From assembly GCA_947629165.1 (NCBI GenBank), contig CANRCR010000012.1:1-38887 (forward strand): 38,887 nt of DNA, given 5' to 3'. Below are positions 13,303 to 20,336 of this stretch, in pieces. The stretch comes from an uncultured Bacilli bacterium (GTDB taxonomy: Bacteria; Bacillota_I; Bacilli_A; RF39; UBA660). Below the pieces are notes generated by a model, which did not search any database, was not told the DNA's origin, and saw only the letters and a list, made by a program, of their open reading frames with translations. The position numbers were made by a program, and so were the translations under genes. Within the stretch, counting starts at the first letter, position 1. Every line of letters begins with the position of its first letter.

Positions 13303-13333
13303 AAAAATAAGAGGAAAACTTTCCTCTTATTTA
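13303..13333 (-). terminator. leuS terminator
   Basis: Minus strand: stem AAATAAGAGGA / TCCTCTTATTT followed by a T-tract. The leuS stop codon is inside the left arm. Confidence 0.85.
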
Positions 13334-15720
13334 ACCACAATATTTACAATACGTCCTTTAATAACGATAATCTTAACGATTTCTTTTCCTTCCAAATGAC
13401 GTTTTACATTTTCAGCGGCTAGTGCTTTTTCTTTAATAACCTCTTCGGTATCATCGATATGGACAGAAATCGTTGCCCGAACTTTACCATTTACTTGAAC
13501 GGCAATTTCTTTTTCTTCTTCAACTAATTTACTTTCGTCATAGGTTGGCCAAGTGGTATAGGCAATCGTATCTTGATGTCCAAGCACCGTATGCCATATT
13601 TCTTCGGTAAGATGTGGCGCAACTGGATTCAACACTTGTACAAATCCATCTGCATACATCCGAGGGAATTTGTTTAATTTATAAATCGTATTTACAAAAA
13701 CCATCATTTGACTGATTGCCGTATTGAAACTTAATTGATCGTAATCTTCGCTTACTTTCTTAATCGTTTGATGATATACTTTTTCAATTTCTAAATCATT
13801 TTCATCGACCAATGGAATTTCTTCAAACATACGCCATACCCGATCAATAAAACGTTTACTTCCTTCGATACCATTTGGATCCCAAGGTTTACTAGCCGAA
13901 AGTGGTCCCATAAACATTTCGTACATTCTTAAAGCATCGGCACCATAATTTTGAACCATTTCATCCGGATTAACGACATTTCCACGCGATTTACTCATTT
14001 TTTCGCCATTCGATCCTAAAATCATTCCTTGATGGAACAACTTTTGGAAAGGTTCTTTGGTTGGAACAATGCCACAATCATATAAAACCTTATGCCAGAA
14101 CCTTGCATAGAGCAAATGAAGTACGGCATGTTCGGCTCCACCGATATAAAGATCCACAGGAAGCCAGTGCTCTAACAATTTAGGATCGGCAATCGCTTGA
14201 TCATTGTGAGGATCAATATATCTTAAATAATACCAACAAGATCCTGCCCATTGTGGCATGGTATTCGTCTCTCGAATTCCTTTCATTCCATCGATTTCAA
14301 CTTCCAAGAAGTCTTGGCAATGAGAAAGTGGACTTTCTCCCGTGGCACTCGGTTGATAGTTATCTGTTGCTGGTAATTCCAAAGGTAATTCGGAAATATC
14401 GACCGTACGCATCGTACCATCTTCCATGTGAATAATCGGAATTGGTTCTCCCCAATAACGTTGTCTTGAGAATAACCAATCACGTAATTTATATTGAACT
14501 TTCGCTTCCCCAACGTTATGTTCTTTTAACCATTCGATCATTTTAGCAATAGCTTCTTCTTTATTTAAACCATCCAAGAAAGAAGAATTGATATGAAGTC
14601 CATCACCCGTATAGGCCGCTTCTTCGATATTTCCTCCTTCAATAACCGGAATAATTGGTAAATCAAACTTTTTCGCAAATTCATAGTCTCTTTCATCGTG
14701 CGCAGGAACTGCCATAATAGCACCCGTTCCATAACTTGCTAAAACGTAATCCGAAATCCAAATAGGTATCTTTTGATCATTAACCGGATTAATAGCATAA
14801 GCCCCCGTAAAGACACCGGTCTTGTCTTTGTTTAATTCCGTTCTTTCCAAATCACTCTTCGAAGCACATACTTTTTGATAATCAGAAACTTCTTCTTGAT
14901 GTTCTTCTGTCGTGATTTCGTTCACAAAAGGATGTTCTGGTGACAAAACACAGTAAGTTGCTCCAAATAAAGTATCACAACGTGTAGTAAATACGGTAAA
15001 TTCTTTATCGGTTCCATCAATTTTAAAGATGACGTTGGCTCCTGTACTTTTACCGATCCAGTTTTTTTGCATTTCTTTCGTTGATTCAGGCCAATCGACT
15101 AACTCCAAGTCTTCAAGTAAGCGTTCCGCATAAGCCGTTATCTTAAGTACCCATTGGCGCATTGGTTTACGAATGACAGGGTATCCTCCACGTTCACTTT
15201 TACCATTGATAACTTCCTCGTTCGCTAATACCGTTCCTAATTCTGGACACCAGTTTACTGGGATTTCATCGACATAAGCAAGTCCCTTTTCATAAAGTTT
15301 CAAAAAGATCCATTGTGTCCATTTATAATACGCAGGATCCGTCGTCGCAATTTCACGATCCCAATCGTAAGATAATCCGAGTGATTGAATTTGACGTTTA
15401 AACGTTTCGATATTTTGTTTCGTAAATTCGGCCGGATGATGTCCCGTCGTAATCGCATATTGCTCTGCAGGAAGTCCAAAAGCATCCCAACCCATCGGAT
15501 GAAGTACATTATATCCTTGCATCCGTTTCATTCGAGCAACGATATCCGTCGCCGTATAACCTTCGGGATGTCCGACATGTAATCCTTGTCCTGAAGGATA
15601 AGGAAACATATCCAAAATATAGTATTTAGGGCGAGAAAAATCCCACGTATCTGTTCGAAACGTTTTGTTTTCCTCCCAGTATTTTTGCCATTTTTCTTCG
15701 GTCTTTTTAAAATTATACAT
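13327..15720 (-). CDS. leuS: leucyl-tRNA synthetase
   Basis: LeuRS charges tRNA-Leu with leucine using ATP. The 797-residue bacterial-type protein has the class I HIGH-type motif as HVGH (residues 48-51, in '[13 protein letters not shown]') and KMSKS in '[17 protein letters not shown]'. It also has the editing-domain threonine-rich segment '[13 protein letters not shown]' and '[12 protein letters not shown]'. The C-terminal domain ends normally. Start 15720 follows AAAGGAAAG by 7 bases; it overlaps the end of the upstream small membrane protein gene by 8 bases (ATGTATAA), implying coupled translation. Control is by the T-box leader at 16161-16376, whose specifier reads CUU (Leu). Identification is secure. 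Confidence 0.98.
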
Positions 15721-16144
15721 GTTTTTTCTTTCCTTTCTTCGGTTTTGCTTTTTGATAATGTTTTCCAATAATTTGAAATGAAATAAGTATCAAGAGTATA
15801 GCTAAAATAAAGCCCACAATTAATTGTAAAAGAAGCCATGGTAGGAAGCTCACAATCGTTACTACGACAGCAATATCAAAACTAGCTACCAGTGCAATAA
15901 AATAAAGTAATTCGCGATAAGATATCTTATTTAAATCAATCTTATACTTTAATACTAAATAGGATACTTCCGTAGGAATATCTTTTTCTTCAATCTTTTT
16001 AATCCGTTTCGAAGAACGTCTTTTTTTCACCTTTTCCGGTTGTTCTTGCAACTTTATTTTTAACAGTTCTACTCGAATCGTCGTAAAATAATAAAGTAAA
16101 AACGCAAGTAGATAAACAGCTATAAACAATAGCACTTGTTCCAT
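15713..16144 (-). CDS. small two/three-helix membrane protein under leucine T-box control
   Basis: A 143-residue protein with an N-terminal membrane helix (about residues 3-21), a strongly basic cytoplasmic segment (about 38-55, '[18 protein letters not shown]') and '[28 protein letters not shown]'. Two adjacent hydrophobic helices follow (about residues 83-127), then a basic tail. I know no function for it. Start 16144 is chosen because GGAGGAGG lies 5 bases upstream. It is the first gene after the T-box, and its stop codon lies inside the leuS start (8-base overlap), so its synthesis should follow leucyl-tRNA starvation as leuS does. It is not a recognised leucine transporter. Confidence 0.72.
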
Positions 16145-16160: not shown

Positions 16161-16376
16161 AAAAAACGTCCTTATTTACATAAGGACGAATGTATTCGCG
16201 GTACCACCTTAATTCATAGTAAAAACTATGCACTTTCTACTCTTAACGGGAGTTATGCGTATCGTATTTTTATAAAAGACAAGTTCAATTTCGATTTTCC
16301 TAGTTTACACCATCCACTAGGTCGCTTTAAAAAATCAACCATTTACTACTTCTTTTGATACGTTTTTCACATTTCA
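16161..16376 (-). promoter_or_regulatory. T-box riboswitch, leucine type (CUU specifier)
   Basis: On the minus strand the leader shows the T-box AAGGTGGTACCGCG (around 16195-16211), followed by a terminator CGTCCTTAT / ATAAGGACG plus TTTTTT (16161-16188). Upstream are a GA-rich stem I base, the distal loop GGATGGTG within CCTAG/CTAGG, and the specifier region TTGAACTTGTC. There CTT (16281-16283) sits after GAA and before a purine, as specifiers do. The TGGT bulge can pair with the ACCA end of an uncharged tRNA-Leu. Binding of uncharged tRNA would favour the antiterminator and expression of the membrane protein and leuS. Confidence 0.93.
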
Positions 16377-16382
16377 GTTATT

Positions 16383-16411
16383 AGTATATTAGATTTCTCC
16401 CAAATATTCAA
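16383..16411 (-). promoter_or_regulatory. promoter of the T-box/leuS operon
   Basis: Minus strand: TTGAAT, 17 bases, TATACT. The -35 lies inside the last codons of the GH31 gene and the -10 directly after its stop, so no terminator separates the two units. Confidence 0.7.
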
Positions 16412-18809
16412 GCAATTTTAAGAATAATTGCATATATTCTTTAGTTAGACCACGTTTCTTTAATTTACGAATTTCGATTCGTTTCTTCTTAATTGGTAAA
16501 TCTGAAAACATAATCGAAGAAATCGTTTCTTTCAAATAAGTATTTATCTGTAAATCCATTAGGATACTATCGATATCATCATTAATTACACGAACAGCAT
16601 CGATTTCGATATCTTTTCCACGACAGTTAATCGTTAATTGACCAACCGAAGGAACATGTCCAACTTCGACGATAAAGTCATTTTGCTCGACATGAGACTT
16701 CGTTGGAATATTGGTACTATTGAAATAAGCAACGATCGAATCGGCAGCTTTCGTATTACGGAAACGAATCTTATAATCACGATATTCCGGTACTAATCCA
16801 CTCTTTCCTTCAATCGAACGAATAATTAAAGTGTAATTACTTGGTAAATAGTTATAATCGATTTGTGTTTTTAAATAATAACCGTCTTGATACAACGAAG
16901 TAACACCATCGTCTTCGTAAAGATTATACGTGTTGTTTTGACCTGGGAAGACGTGAATTTCCATTTCACTTGGATTTCCTATATTGTTTTGATTACTCTT
17001 ATTCGAAAGTGGAATAATACTTCCACCACGAACGAAAACAGGATAATCTTCATCACGGAAGAAAGAGACATGCTTCCGATTACCTGGGAATTTCTTTCCG
17101 GTCGTAAAGTCATACCAAATACCTTCTGGAACGAAGAAACGATGAATGGTACGGTTCATGACAACATCTTTTTTCGTAAGAATAGGCGCAATCATCATTT
17201 CGTCTCCAAAATAGTATTGGTTACGATAGTTTTCATCGTCGTATACCCAAGGTACTTCGTAATAGAGCGGTTGTACCAAAGGCTTTCCAGTAATAGAATA
17301 CTGATAACTTGCCGTATAGAGATATGGAATTAAGCGGTGCCGTAACCGTAAATAGTTATCAACTACCGACAATGTCTTAATATCCCAACGCCATGGCTCC
17401 CGTTTATAATATTTTCCACGAGCTCCATGGAAACGTAAAATCGGACTAAAAACACCTAATTGTACATAACGAATATATAATTCTGGATCCTCAATACCAC
17501 CATGGTTACCACCGATATCGTGACTCCACCAAGAAATACCTGCATTGGCAGCCTGTTGATTTAAAAGTGGAAGTTGCCGTAAGGTTTCCCAAGTAGATTC
17601 CGTTTTGCCGGAATAAAGAACCGGATAACGATGTGGTGCAATCAAAGCTGGACGAGATAGCAACATACCCCGTTTAGCTGCTGCCCGACCGACATCGAGG
17701 AATAGATAATGATTTAAAATCCATAACTTTTGAGTTCCTGATTCAGTTTGATCGTAATCGTCCCAGAAGAAGTCAACACCTTTAGCTTCGAGGGAATGCA
17801 AAAATAATTTCATATATACATCTAAAAAGACAGGATTTAAAGGATCAAAAGGAATAACACTATTCTCAGGAACTTTCAAATAACTAATCGCTTGTTTATA
17901 AAGTTCTTCGTGTGGATAAATGCCTTCTCCAGGATCAACTCGAACACCCACATGAATATTCATCTCATGTAAGGTTTTTAAAGTCTCCTCTGGTTTTGGA
18001 AATAACGTTGGATTAAAGGTGTATCCACCTTTTAATTTTGTTTTCTTTTTATCACCTAATTCACGAATATGCCAATCTTTATCGAGCAAAATAACCGAAA
18101 CTGGAATATTGTGATATTCAAAATCACGAGCAAGTTGAATTAAACTTTCGTGATCATATGTCGTATTGCGACTCCACCAGTTTCCTAACGCATAACGTGG
18201 AATAAATGGTGGTTGACCGGTTAAACGGAAATAATCTTGTAGGCAAAGTTGGAAATCTTCTTTATAAGCAAAAAGATAGATATCGAGTGACTTCTCTTCC
18301 CGTTCGTGAAGTGTTCCATCCGCTTCAAATAATAAAGAATTACTATCGTCAAAAGAAACAAAACCGTCGATTGAATAAAGTCCTTTATAAGGCGTTTGAT
18401 TTCGTTTATTACCATCGAACGAAGTAAATACGCCGCGATAGTTACGTGCTTCTGGATGTTGATAGTACCAAGTGCGATCAGTTCCAGCAATCGTTACCTT
18501 TAAATGATTCATTGGTACGACTTTACCAGAATCAAACGAGGTCTCTTTTAAATATTCAAGTTGAAAATACTTAGTTTGAATATAGAGGTATTTTTCATCC
18601 TGTTTCGCTTCGAATGGTACCACATCAAAATGACGAAAGATAGCAAATTGACTAGGGGCATCGTAAAAAATTCCTTTTGGACTATATTCCATACGAATTA
18701 AACGTTCCGATAAAACAGTAAAACGATAAGTTTTCCCCGCTAAAATAGACTGTCCATCCGCAATTCCATTACGCATATCTATTTGAAATTGTTTTCCTAA
18801 ATCATACAT
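16389..18809 (-). CDS. GH31 family glycoside hydrolase with an atypical acid/base residue
   Basis: An 806-residue cytoplasmic protein of GH31 (alpha-glucosidase/alpha-xylosidase family). The order is an N-terminal beta-sandwich (about residues 1-205), the barrel beginning 'FIPRYALGNWWSRNTTYDHE', 'VSVILLDKDWH', nucleophile region 'DFFWDDYDQTE' (candidate Asp351), 'WWSHDIGG' and 'LGVFSPILRFH'. C-terminal beta domains and a helical tail follow. The site where GH31 enzymes carry the acid/base Asp ('SGD' before 'STW') reads 'YSGKTESTWETL' with Lys402, 51 residues after the nucleophile, as expected. The substrate cannot be told. No signal peptide and no sugar transporter genes are nearby. AGGGTGAT precedes the ATG. 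Confidence 0.9.
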   Translation of the reverse strand: MYDLGKQFQIDMRNGIADGQSILAGKTYRFTVLSERLIRMEYSPKGIFYDAPSQFAIFRHFDVVPFEAKQDEKYLYIQTKYFQLEYLKETSFDSGKVVPMNHLKVTIAGTDRTWYYQHPEARNYRGVFTSFDGNKRNQTPYKGLYSIDGFVSFDDSNSLLFEADGTLHEREEKSLDIYLFAYKEDFQLCLQDYFRLTGQPPFIPRYALGNWWSRNTTYDHESLIQLARDFEYHNIPVSVILLDKDWHIRELGDKKKTKLKGGYTFNPTLFPKPEETLKTLHEMNIHVGVRVDPGEGIYPHEELYKQAISYLKVPENSVIPFDPLNPVFLDVYMKLFLHSLEAKGVDFFWDDYDQTESGTQKLWILNHYLFLDVGRAAAKRGMLLSRPALIAPHRYPVLYSGKTESTWETLRQLPLLNQQAANAGISWWSHDIGGNHGGIEDPELYIRYVQLGVFSPILRFHGARGKYYKREPWRWDIKTLSVVDNYLRLRHRLIPYLYTASYQYSITGKPLVQPLYYEVPWVYDDENYRNQYYFGDEMMIAPILTKKDVVMNRTIHRFFVPEGIWYDFTTGKKFPGNRKHVSFFRDEDYPVFVRGGSIIPLSNKSNQNNIGNPSEMEIHVFPGQNNTYNLYEDDGVTSLYQDGYYLKTQIDYNYLPSNYTLIIRSIEGKSGLVPEYRDYKIRFRNTKAADSIVAYFNSTNIPTKSHVEQNDFIVEVGHVPSVGQLTINCRGKDIEIDAVRVINDDIDSILMDLQINTYLKETISSIMFSDLPIKKKRIEIRKLKKRGLTKEYMQLFLKLLEYLGEI

Positions 18810-18890: not shown

Positions 18891-18919
18891 AAAAGAGAAA
18901 AGATTTTAAATCTCTTCTC
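18891..18919 (-). terminator. terminator of the zinc-ribbon gene
   Basis: Minus strand: GAGAAGAGATT / AATCTTTTCTC (one G-T pair), stop codon in the loop, followed by TTTT only. A moderate terminator. Confidence 0.6.
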
Positions 18920-20336
18920 CTAATCCTCCAAATAATCCTTGAAAAAACTGTATGATAGATAAACTATTTATTTCAGTTTCGAGTTGAAGTAATTCTTCTT
19001 CCGTTAAACGATCGATATCTTTAGCACTTTCCATAGCACTATCTTGCACAAAAGGAGGTGCTTCTTCGAAAACAATATCGGTTTTTATACCAATATCGAA
19101 ACTGATTCCCTGACTTTGAAATGTCATCTTACCATCGATATAATAAGCATAAGATAAATCATTTGCTTTCTTTCGAATCGTAAAGTCAAAGGAATTACTG
19201 TTTTCTTCGTCTGGGAAAGATAATTCTACTTGATAAGCATCCTCAAGGGGTGTAATCATTCCATCCATAAGTGGTTCATCGTTAGAAAATAAAGTAAAAA
19301 TAGTATCGGTATCCCCCGTTACCCAAACGAGTTTGATAGTATCCTTATCATCCGTAATCACGAACGCATTATTTCCTTCGATTTGATAATAACATAAATC
19401 AGTAGGTCCTTCTTCTAACTCCCATCCGAGAACCTCATTCATTCCTCGTACATAGATACTGTAAGAAAAATCGGTTCCCTCTGGAACAGTCGAAAGCGTT
19501 TCGAAAAAACTGGTAATAGCTTCTTCCTGATCTCCTACAAAAGAAGAAAGTGATTCCATAAATTCTTGATCATTCTTTAAGGATTGTACGAATTCATCAC
19601 AAAATGCCTTGTAATCTTCCTCACTGAGTGCATAGGTATATTTCTTTGCTTTTATAGGTTGGTCTTTTATCGAGGTTACTTCCGAAGAGGTAATCACTTT
19701 ATCATCAATCTTTTCTTTCAATAACGAAACATAATGATTCACTGCCGATTGTAAAAAGGCATAATTTTTATCGGAATAAAGTGAAAAATAAGTACCCTCA
19801 CTAAAATAGTAAGAATCCATTACTTCGGGAAGACGGAAATAATGTTTGGTATCATCCATCATACCATCCCACTCAAAGATTGTGTCTTCTCCGAGTGCAA
19901 AATCCATATTATACGTATTTTTAGACAGATTTTGGTAATCGTTAAATTGAAGATGATAATTGATCGAAGATGCATCTAACCCAAAAGCTTCCGGCAAAGT
20001 TAATTCAAGTTTTAAATCGAGTGTCGCAGCGTCTTTCGACGATAAAAATTGCTGTAACTCATCTACATTCGATTCGTAATATTGGGTTATATTTTCGCTC
20101 CATTTCGTAAGACTCGTAAGCATCAAATTTTTAGGACTAGAAAGCGAACGAATCACAAAAAAGATTAGAACTCCGACCAAAATCGTAATTCCAATAATAA
20201 CAATGGCTAAAAGTGGTCCCCGATTTTTCTTTTTAGGATAAAAATAATCCATATCTGCTTTCGTAACCGGCTGCCCACAATTAGGACAGGTTGTCATAGT
20301 TTCTGTTAAATCTTGACCACAAACCTTACACTTCAT
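18906..20336 (-). CDS. membrane-anchored zinc-ribbon protein with an extracytoplasmic domain
   Basis: A 476-residue protein. The first 25 residues hold a zinc ribbon with two CxxC pairs ('CKVCGQ', 'CPNCGQ'). Lys-rich residues and one membrane helix follow (about residues 43-64, 'LLAIVIIGITILVGVLIFFVI'). The remaining ~410 residues should lie outside and are acidic and beta-rich ('LDLKLELTLPEAF', 'YNMDFALGEDTIFEW'), with no catalytic motif I know. Such zinc-ribbon/TM/outer-domain proteins are common in Bacilli and unassigned. AGGAGG precedes the start. It begins 12 bases after the VanY-like gene ends, so the two form an operon, suggesting an envelope role. Confidence 0.75.
   Translation of the reverse strand: MKCKVCGQDLTETMTTCPNCGQPVTKADMDYFYPKKKNRGPLLAIVIIGITILVGVLIFFVIRSLSSPKNLMLTSLTKWSENITQYYESNVDELQQFLSSKDAATLDLKLELTLPEAFGLDASSINYHLQFNDYQNLSKNTYNMDFALGEDTIFEWDGMMDDTKHYFRLPEVMDSYYFSEGTYFSLYSDKNYAFLQSAVNHYVSLLKEKIDDKVITSSEVTSIKDQPIKAKKYTYALSEEDYKAFCDEFVQSLKNDQEFMESLSSFVGDQEEAITSFFETLSTVPEGTDFSYSIYVRGMNEVLGWELEEGPTDLCYYQIEGNNAFVITDDKDTIKLVWVTGDTDTIFTLFSNDEPLMDGMITPLEDAYQVELSFPDEENSNSFDFTIRKKANDLSYAYYIDGKMTFQSQGISFDIGIKTDIVFEEAPPFVQDSAMESAKDIDRLTEEELLQLETEINSLSIIQFFQGLFGGLGEEI

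Follow-up and report, generated by a model that had tools for sequence, protein, structure and literature searches.

The nearest characterised relative of the protein studied here is LlGH31_u1, an alpha-1,3-glucosidase of Lactococcus lactis that is described as hexameric and probably intracellular (PMC9061262). In that account D341 is the nucleophile and D394 the acid/base residue, the D394A mutant is inactive, and an extra C-terminal domain of four helices is proposed to aid hexamerisation (PMC9061262). Our literature search found no description of a GH31 clade lacking the acid/base residue; an earlier description is possible. By the established mechanism, a retaining GH31 enzyme that lacks this acid can expel an ordinary sugar leaving group only with difficulty. 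Glycosidase folds have nevertheless been kept after the loss of catalysis, for binding or assembly, in rBAT and 4F2hc, the GH13-like heavy chains of amino-acid transporters, and in the chitinase-like YKL-40. Unlike the protein described below, these are eukaryotic and belong to other GH families, and the literature search found no comparable non-catalytic case in GH31. The site of plant myrosinase, of GH1, is of the retaining type and has a nucleophile but no acid/base; the enzyme still hydrolyses an activated substrate.

We analysed a stretch of 38,887 nucleotides (the window) from an uncultured Bacilli bacterium of the order RF39, an uncultured order described as highly reduced in genome (PMC6784871). 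One open reading frame in the window starts with ATG, runs without an internal stop and is the sole GH31 barrel match in the 1.09-Mb source genome (Table 1). Its product matches the GH31 barrel (PF01055, 183.1 bits against a curated cut-off of 23.5), the GH31 C-terminal domain (PF21365, 66.2 against 24.4) and DUF5110 (PF17137, 50.9 against 27), and both sequence and fold, with barrel and C-domains present, place it in GH31. The best PDB match by sequence was LlGH31_u1 (7wj9/7wjc, E about 1e-115). An AlphaFold2 model of the monomer (mean pLDDT 90.7, pTM 0.91) matched 7wja over model residues 19..806 with Z 49.7 and rmsd 2.9 (712 residues aligned, 32% identity). This match reached residue 806, aligned to chain residue 737, and included the C-terminal helices, which are modelled at 741-752, 757-767, 773-786 and 790-805 and correspond to those of LlGH31_u1; VIA-align matches other than 7wj* stop by model residue 732 and are uninformative on other folds of the C-terminal part. 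The window protein thus resembles LlGH31_u1 as described (PDB 7wj9, 7wja, 7wjc; PMC9061262) over the whole fold, including the C-terminal four-helix domain.

Table 1. Features of the window discussed in the text. Subclade counts refer to the 69 sequences of the window's subclade, overall counts to 189 family sequences.
Feature	Coordinates	Strand	Remarks
GH31-like protein, 806 aa	16389..18809	-	From Pfam and model: N-domain, TIM barrel, proximal and distal C-domains, four-helix C-terminal domain
Asp243	18081..18083	-	Subsite -1; equivalent of CtGII D443 by alignment and the text of PMC9061262; 67/69 subclade, 114/189 overall
Asp351	17757..17759	-	Nucleophile position (D341 of LlGH31_u1), in FFWDDYDQ
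Arg386	17652..17654	-	Conserved barrel Arg; 69/69 subclade, 156/189 overall
Lys402	17604..17606	-	GH31 acid/base position (D394 of LlGH31_u1); codon AAA
Glu404	17598..17600	-	Two residues past the lost acid/base; Glu in 59/69 subclade; candidate relocated acid or binding residue
Asp431 (HDIGG)	17517..17519	-	Subsite -1; equivalent of CtGII D662 by the same alignment and text; 68/69 subclade, 177/189 overall
Asn435	17505..17507	-	Replaces the +1-subsite His427; Asn in 67/69 subclade, His in 20/20 outgroup
His461	17427..17429	-	Subsite -1; equivalent of CtGII H691 by the same alignment and text; 64/69 subclade, 84/189 overall
C-terminal four-helix domain, residues 741-806	16392..16589	-	Corresponds to the LlGH31_u1 domain; highly conserved across the family
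T-box leader	16179..16368	-	RF00230, 103.9 bits; directly downstream of the GH31 gene, leads the next genes
Small membrane-type protein, 148 aa	15713..16159	-	No Pfam family over cut-off; between T-box and leucyl-tRNA synthetase
Leucyl-tRNA synthetase	13327..15768	-	Named from sequence; downstream neighbour

The nucleophile and most subsite -1 residues are common to the two proteins: D351 aligns with D341, D243, W349, D431 and H461 are kept, and Y399 supplies an aromatic residue for F391. At other positions D394 is replaced by Lys402, H280 of the subsite -1 set by Asp292, and the subsite +1 residues Q343 and H427 by Asp353 and Asn435; these equivalences to LlGH31_u1, like those to CtGII, are drawn from alignment and the text of PMC9061262 rather than from coordinates. 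The earlier note on this DNA had reported a Lys in place of the acid/base Asp, at 17601..17612, and proposed an alignment with characterised GH31 subfamilies as a check. The HMMER alignment to 7wj9 was gapless over the acid/base segment and paired K402, within YSGKTESTW, with chain residue 414, equivalent to D394 once the 20-residue tag is subtracted; together with the agreeing fold, this rules out a misaligned segment. On the plus strand the codon reads TTT, giving AAA for Lys402, and the earlier span, which encodes Ser400-Thr403, includes it. The note was also right about the nucleophile in FWDDYDQ, whereas its statement that all surrounding motifs are intact holds for the nucleophile and most subsite -1 residues but not for D292, D353 and N435. 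A genome of the same genus with 83% identity likewise has Lys at 402, and three others of the genus have Glu. Because this relative shares the Lys and the family at large is without Asp, Lys402 is not a product of chance or sequencing error, and loss of ordinary hydrolysis is its likely consequence.

Absence of the acid/base Asp proved to be a trait of the host family. A C-terminal profile detected the gene in 131 of 145 family genomes, drawn across 144 genera, and not in the other 14, some of which are incomplete; the first search had given an orthologue in 52 of 57 other family genomes. Named records among the relatives are MAGs of uncultured Bacilli, Tenericutes and Erysipelotrichaceae, many of gut origin. 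From 226 BLAST rows, 202 were kept after identical cores and loci L001, L002 and L069 had been dropped; setting aside the rows of L055-L068 left 193, and four rows missing one site were then removed to give 189 sequences. Position 402 was occupied by K (72), S (48), E (29), R (10), N (8), Q (6) and H (5), and more rarely by P (3), V (2), Y (2), C, I, F and D (1 each); Asp was absent from 188/189, so that the conserved trait is its absence and not, as the earlier note had proposed to check, a Lys shared by a clade. Position 351 was D in 174, N in 7, E in 3, T in 2, and G, S and K in 1 each, and the equivalent of H280 was never His. Because 80 of the loci in this set are the best 80 of at least 578 matches, those nearest the window, the window's subclade is over-represented among the 189; an initial set with less bias, of 53 sequences (the window plus 52), had Asp at 402 in 0/53. 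The only family member with D402 (L185, 4003-6435, plus strand) has a pocket that is otherwise eroded (G243, N292, A461), and its sisters have Asn.

Outside the family the picture differs. Twenty GH31_u1 sequences of other families in the class (L055-L058 and L236-L251) served as outgroup; they are assigned to the same subfamily by alignment at 29-40% identity, have Asp at both the 351 and the 402 positions (20/20) and keep the full active site (barcode DDHWDQRFD.DHH), whereas the window family does not. It is therefore very improbable that the window protein is an ordinary active GH31 alpha-glucosidase that tolerates Lys402. Its fold, nucleophile and most subsite -1 residues would suit such an enzyme, but the Asp is kept throughout the outgroup, the nearest characterised relative is described as inactive when D394 is replaced, and related pocket residues have changed too. 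One family genome, G104, has a non-canonical copy and, in addition, a fragment at a contig end that looks like canonical GH31_u1 and lies nearest the outgroup (L253, 4709-5677, plus strand); it may reflect horizontal gain or contamination.

We placed 188 family and 20 outgroup sequences in a tree, leaving out L139, the three C-terminal fragments L152, L162 and L178, the loci L252-L254, and distant GH31 paralogues. The host family was monophyletic, with weak support at the family node (0.0 after rerooting). Site 402 changes at least 43 times on this tree, about the rate of an average site; this variation rules out a conserved catalytic Lys and makes a specific catalytic role for Lys unlikely. 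The parsimony ancestor of the family has D243, W349, D351, R386 and D431, with K or H at 402, and the acid/base would therefore have been lost first, together with H280 and largely with Q343 and H427. In the window's subclade (69 sequences, support 0.99) the glucose-binding residues are retained, with the nucleophile D351 in 69/69, and Glu404 is a new feature (59/69). Position 402 there is Asp in 0/69 and varies between S, K, E, P, I and C. A subclade of 54 sequences has mainly K402 (45), G461 (49) and N243 (31), another of 32 has E402 (18), G or S243 (26) and S or A461 (32), and all members of an 8-sequence subclade have lost D431. Twenty-five basal sequences, which do not form a clade, have D243 in 25/25, D351 in 25/25 and H461 in 20/25.

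Despite the loss of a catalytic residue throughout the clade, the gene is under purifying selection, as expected of a pseudoenzyme: dN/dS was 0.02-0.12 in the 30 closest of 151 pairs. The earlier judgement that the open 806-residue frame does not represent decay was thus borne out, and open frames, presence in 131/145 genomes and low dN/dS together rule out simple decay or frameshift. A GH31-like frame at L139 (5998-8412, plus strand) is split by an in-frame stop, as a pseudogene or assembly artefact would predict, but that explanation is barely credible for the family, in which frames of about 770-850 aa are open in nearly all full-length matches and dN/dS lies well below 1.

We compared conservation between pairs with an overall identity of 0.36-0.50 (at most 600 random pairs per class, truncated L240 and L248 left out). 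Outgroup pairs were identical at 100% of the 12-site pocket, 52% of the barrel, 37% of the proximal C-domain and 21% of the distal C-domain, and their C-terminal helices, unlike those of the host family, were poorly conserved (10.5%). Family pairs showed 41% for the pocket, 44% for the barrel, 57% and 51% for the proximal and distal C-domains, and 53% for the C-terminal helices. Forty positions that hardly vary in the outgroup are free within the family. Fifteen are newly fixed there, among them Y468, K469, E500, Y504, D524, F583, Y589, Y654, F768 and R777, and most of the fifteen are distant in sequence from the catalytic motifs. The released pocket, the tightened C-terminal half and the low dN/dS thus indicate repurposing rather than decay. 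This shift of conservation towards the C-terminal half, the pocket erosion in three subclades and the replacement of the nucleophile by N, E, T, G, S or K in 15/189 would also be expected if the protein were a pure structural scaffold everywhere, with the pocket of the window's subclade kept by chance or for fold stability. Six pocket sites in that subclade, however, have a mean pairwise identity of 93% against 62% for the barrel, which is too high for an unconstrained site and leaves a scaffold of this kind distinctly unlikely.

A rival reading is altered catalysis in the window's subclade, in which Asp351 would act as nucleophile with Glu404 as a relocated acid/base, or on a substrate with a good leaving group such as phosphate that needs no acid; the protein would then be a transglycosidase, an enzyme resembling phosphorylases or a hydrolase acting on an activated glycoside. 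The invariant D351, the kept subsite -1 residues and the acidic residue at 404 (Asp in one sequence besides those with Glu) speak for this, as do the common Glu402 of another subclade (18/32) and the existence of natural glycosidases without acid/base, such as myrosinase. In myrosinase, however, the replaced acid/base site is conserved, whereas 402 drifts here, also within the window's subclade. Moreover, 9/69 of the subclade, 7 of them with K402, lack an acidic residue at 404 and still keep the gene; position 404 is mostly not acidic outside the subclade, and other subclades mostly have neither acid although the protein is conserved. The +1-subsite residues Q343 and H427 are lost, and no glycan pathway gene was recognised adjoining the GH31-like gene. 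We therefore regard altered catalysis as doubtful. Of the functional options listed in the earlier note, a different proton donor survives only through Glu404 and a lyase finds no specific support; "only binds sugar" fits the window's subclade best.

Taken together, we consider it moderately probable that the protein is a pseudo-alpha-glucosidase, of GH31_u1 type, that has lost its acid/base and is kept for a sugar-binding or scaffolding role as a hexamer. This is the simplest account because it joins the mechanistic need for the acid with a drifting site 402, a pocket that has been freed and a C-terminal half that has become more conserved. The protein has probably taken on a different function, for instance as a sugar sensor or as a holder of other proteins; we infer the absence of hydrolysis, the hexamer, the sugar binding, a partner and a regulatory role. 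An ancestor at the base of this family of small-genome gut Bacilli would have lost the acid/base Asp once, and the gene would have been retained near-universally for a non-hydrolytic job. The window's subclade retains the subsite -1 pocket with its nucleophile Asp, and this pocket is still under constraint. For this reason the protein there most likely holds an alpha-glucose-like sugar and leaves it uncut; the sugar-bound state would be passed on through the C-terminal domains and oligomer interfaces. Several observations count against the pseudo-alpha-glucosidase: a nucleophile kept in 174/189, and throughout the window's subclade, exceeds the need of a pure scaffold; Glu404, found in 59/69 of that subclade, could be a new acid; Glu, the chemically nearest substitute, stands at 402 in 29/189, including the three relatives in the window's genus; the pyruvate kinase linkage described below is confined to one other subclade; and 14/145 genomes, some of them incomplete, lack the gene.

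In the other subclades the pocket has eroded further while the C-terminal half has stayed conserved. One of these, the K402/G461 subclade (node support 0.52), which is not that of the window, has pyruvate kinase directly upstream in 48/53 loci, compared with 0/124 elsewhere (L042, 3589-5019, and 47 further loci), and the distance from the pyruvate kinase stop to the GH31-like ATG is 8-32 bp in 39 of the 42 loci with a start found. This pairing suggests a role in central carbon metabolism in this one subclade, where the protein might serve in scaffolding or regulation. A bolder version, which we hold to be unlikely, is that the family converted a hexameric cytosolic alpha-glucosidase into a core regulator of central metabolism that reads sugar, first by losing the acid/base, which would leave the sugar held but uncut, and then by dismantling the pocket and joining a tight pyruvate kinase operon in one branch.

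Annotation pipelines will give this protein the label of alpha-glucosidase or alpha-xylosidase across hundreds of genomes of uncultured gut bacteria, and metabolic models will credit these bacteria with a use of sugars that they probably lack. The family is also a rare natural series within one fold, from an intact site (other families) through a lost acid/base with the pocket kept to a lost pocket with the scaffold kept, and makes it testable what a glycosidase fold serves after cutting has stopped. Finally, it points to a core function in bacteria with strongly reduced genomes.

The window gene differs from that of LlGH31_u1 in its surroundings: it is not part of a sugar-uptake gene cluster, and its neighbours are VanY, a T-box and leucyl-tRNA synthetase. 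A VanY-type carboxypeptidase is found at most three genes upstream in 53/59 loci of the window's subclade. Just upstream in the window lies a 476-aa protein with a weak zinc-ribbon match (18906..20336, minus strand), relatives of which are upstream in 7 loci. Downstream on the same strand, the small membrane-type protein occurs in 141/191 loci and leucyl-tRNA synthetase in 133/191. The T-box leader directly downstream suggests that the GH31 gene ends its own transcription unit; of 12 relatives tested, 8 have a T-box in this position too, so that, despite the conserved order, a unit separate from leucyl-tRNA synthetase is likely and an operon with it was rejected. A glycogen link was likewise not supported, since glycogen synthase was found over cut-off in 0/58 family genomes and GH13 in 7/58. 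The idea that the C-terminal helices are a general interaction tag was dropped, as beyond weak hits they recur in only one near-identical segment, shared by genomes G056 (L069, 2409-3059, plus strand) and G113 (L231, 4137-4835, minus strand). This segment encodes a multi-pass membrane protein that ends in GH31-like C-terminal helices, beside a GH3-like gene (named by sequence); the membrane-protein frame is broken at L231, and integrase-like ORFs, also named by sequence, lie near L069.
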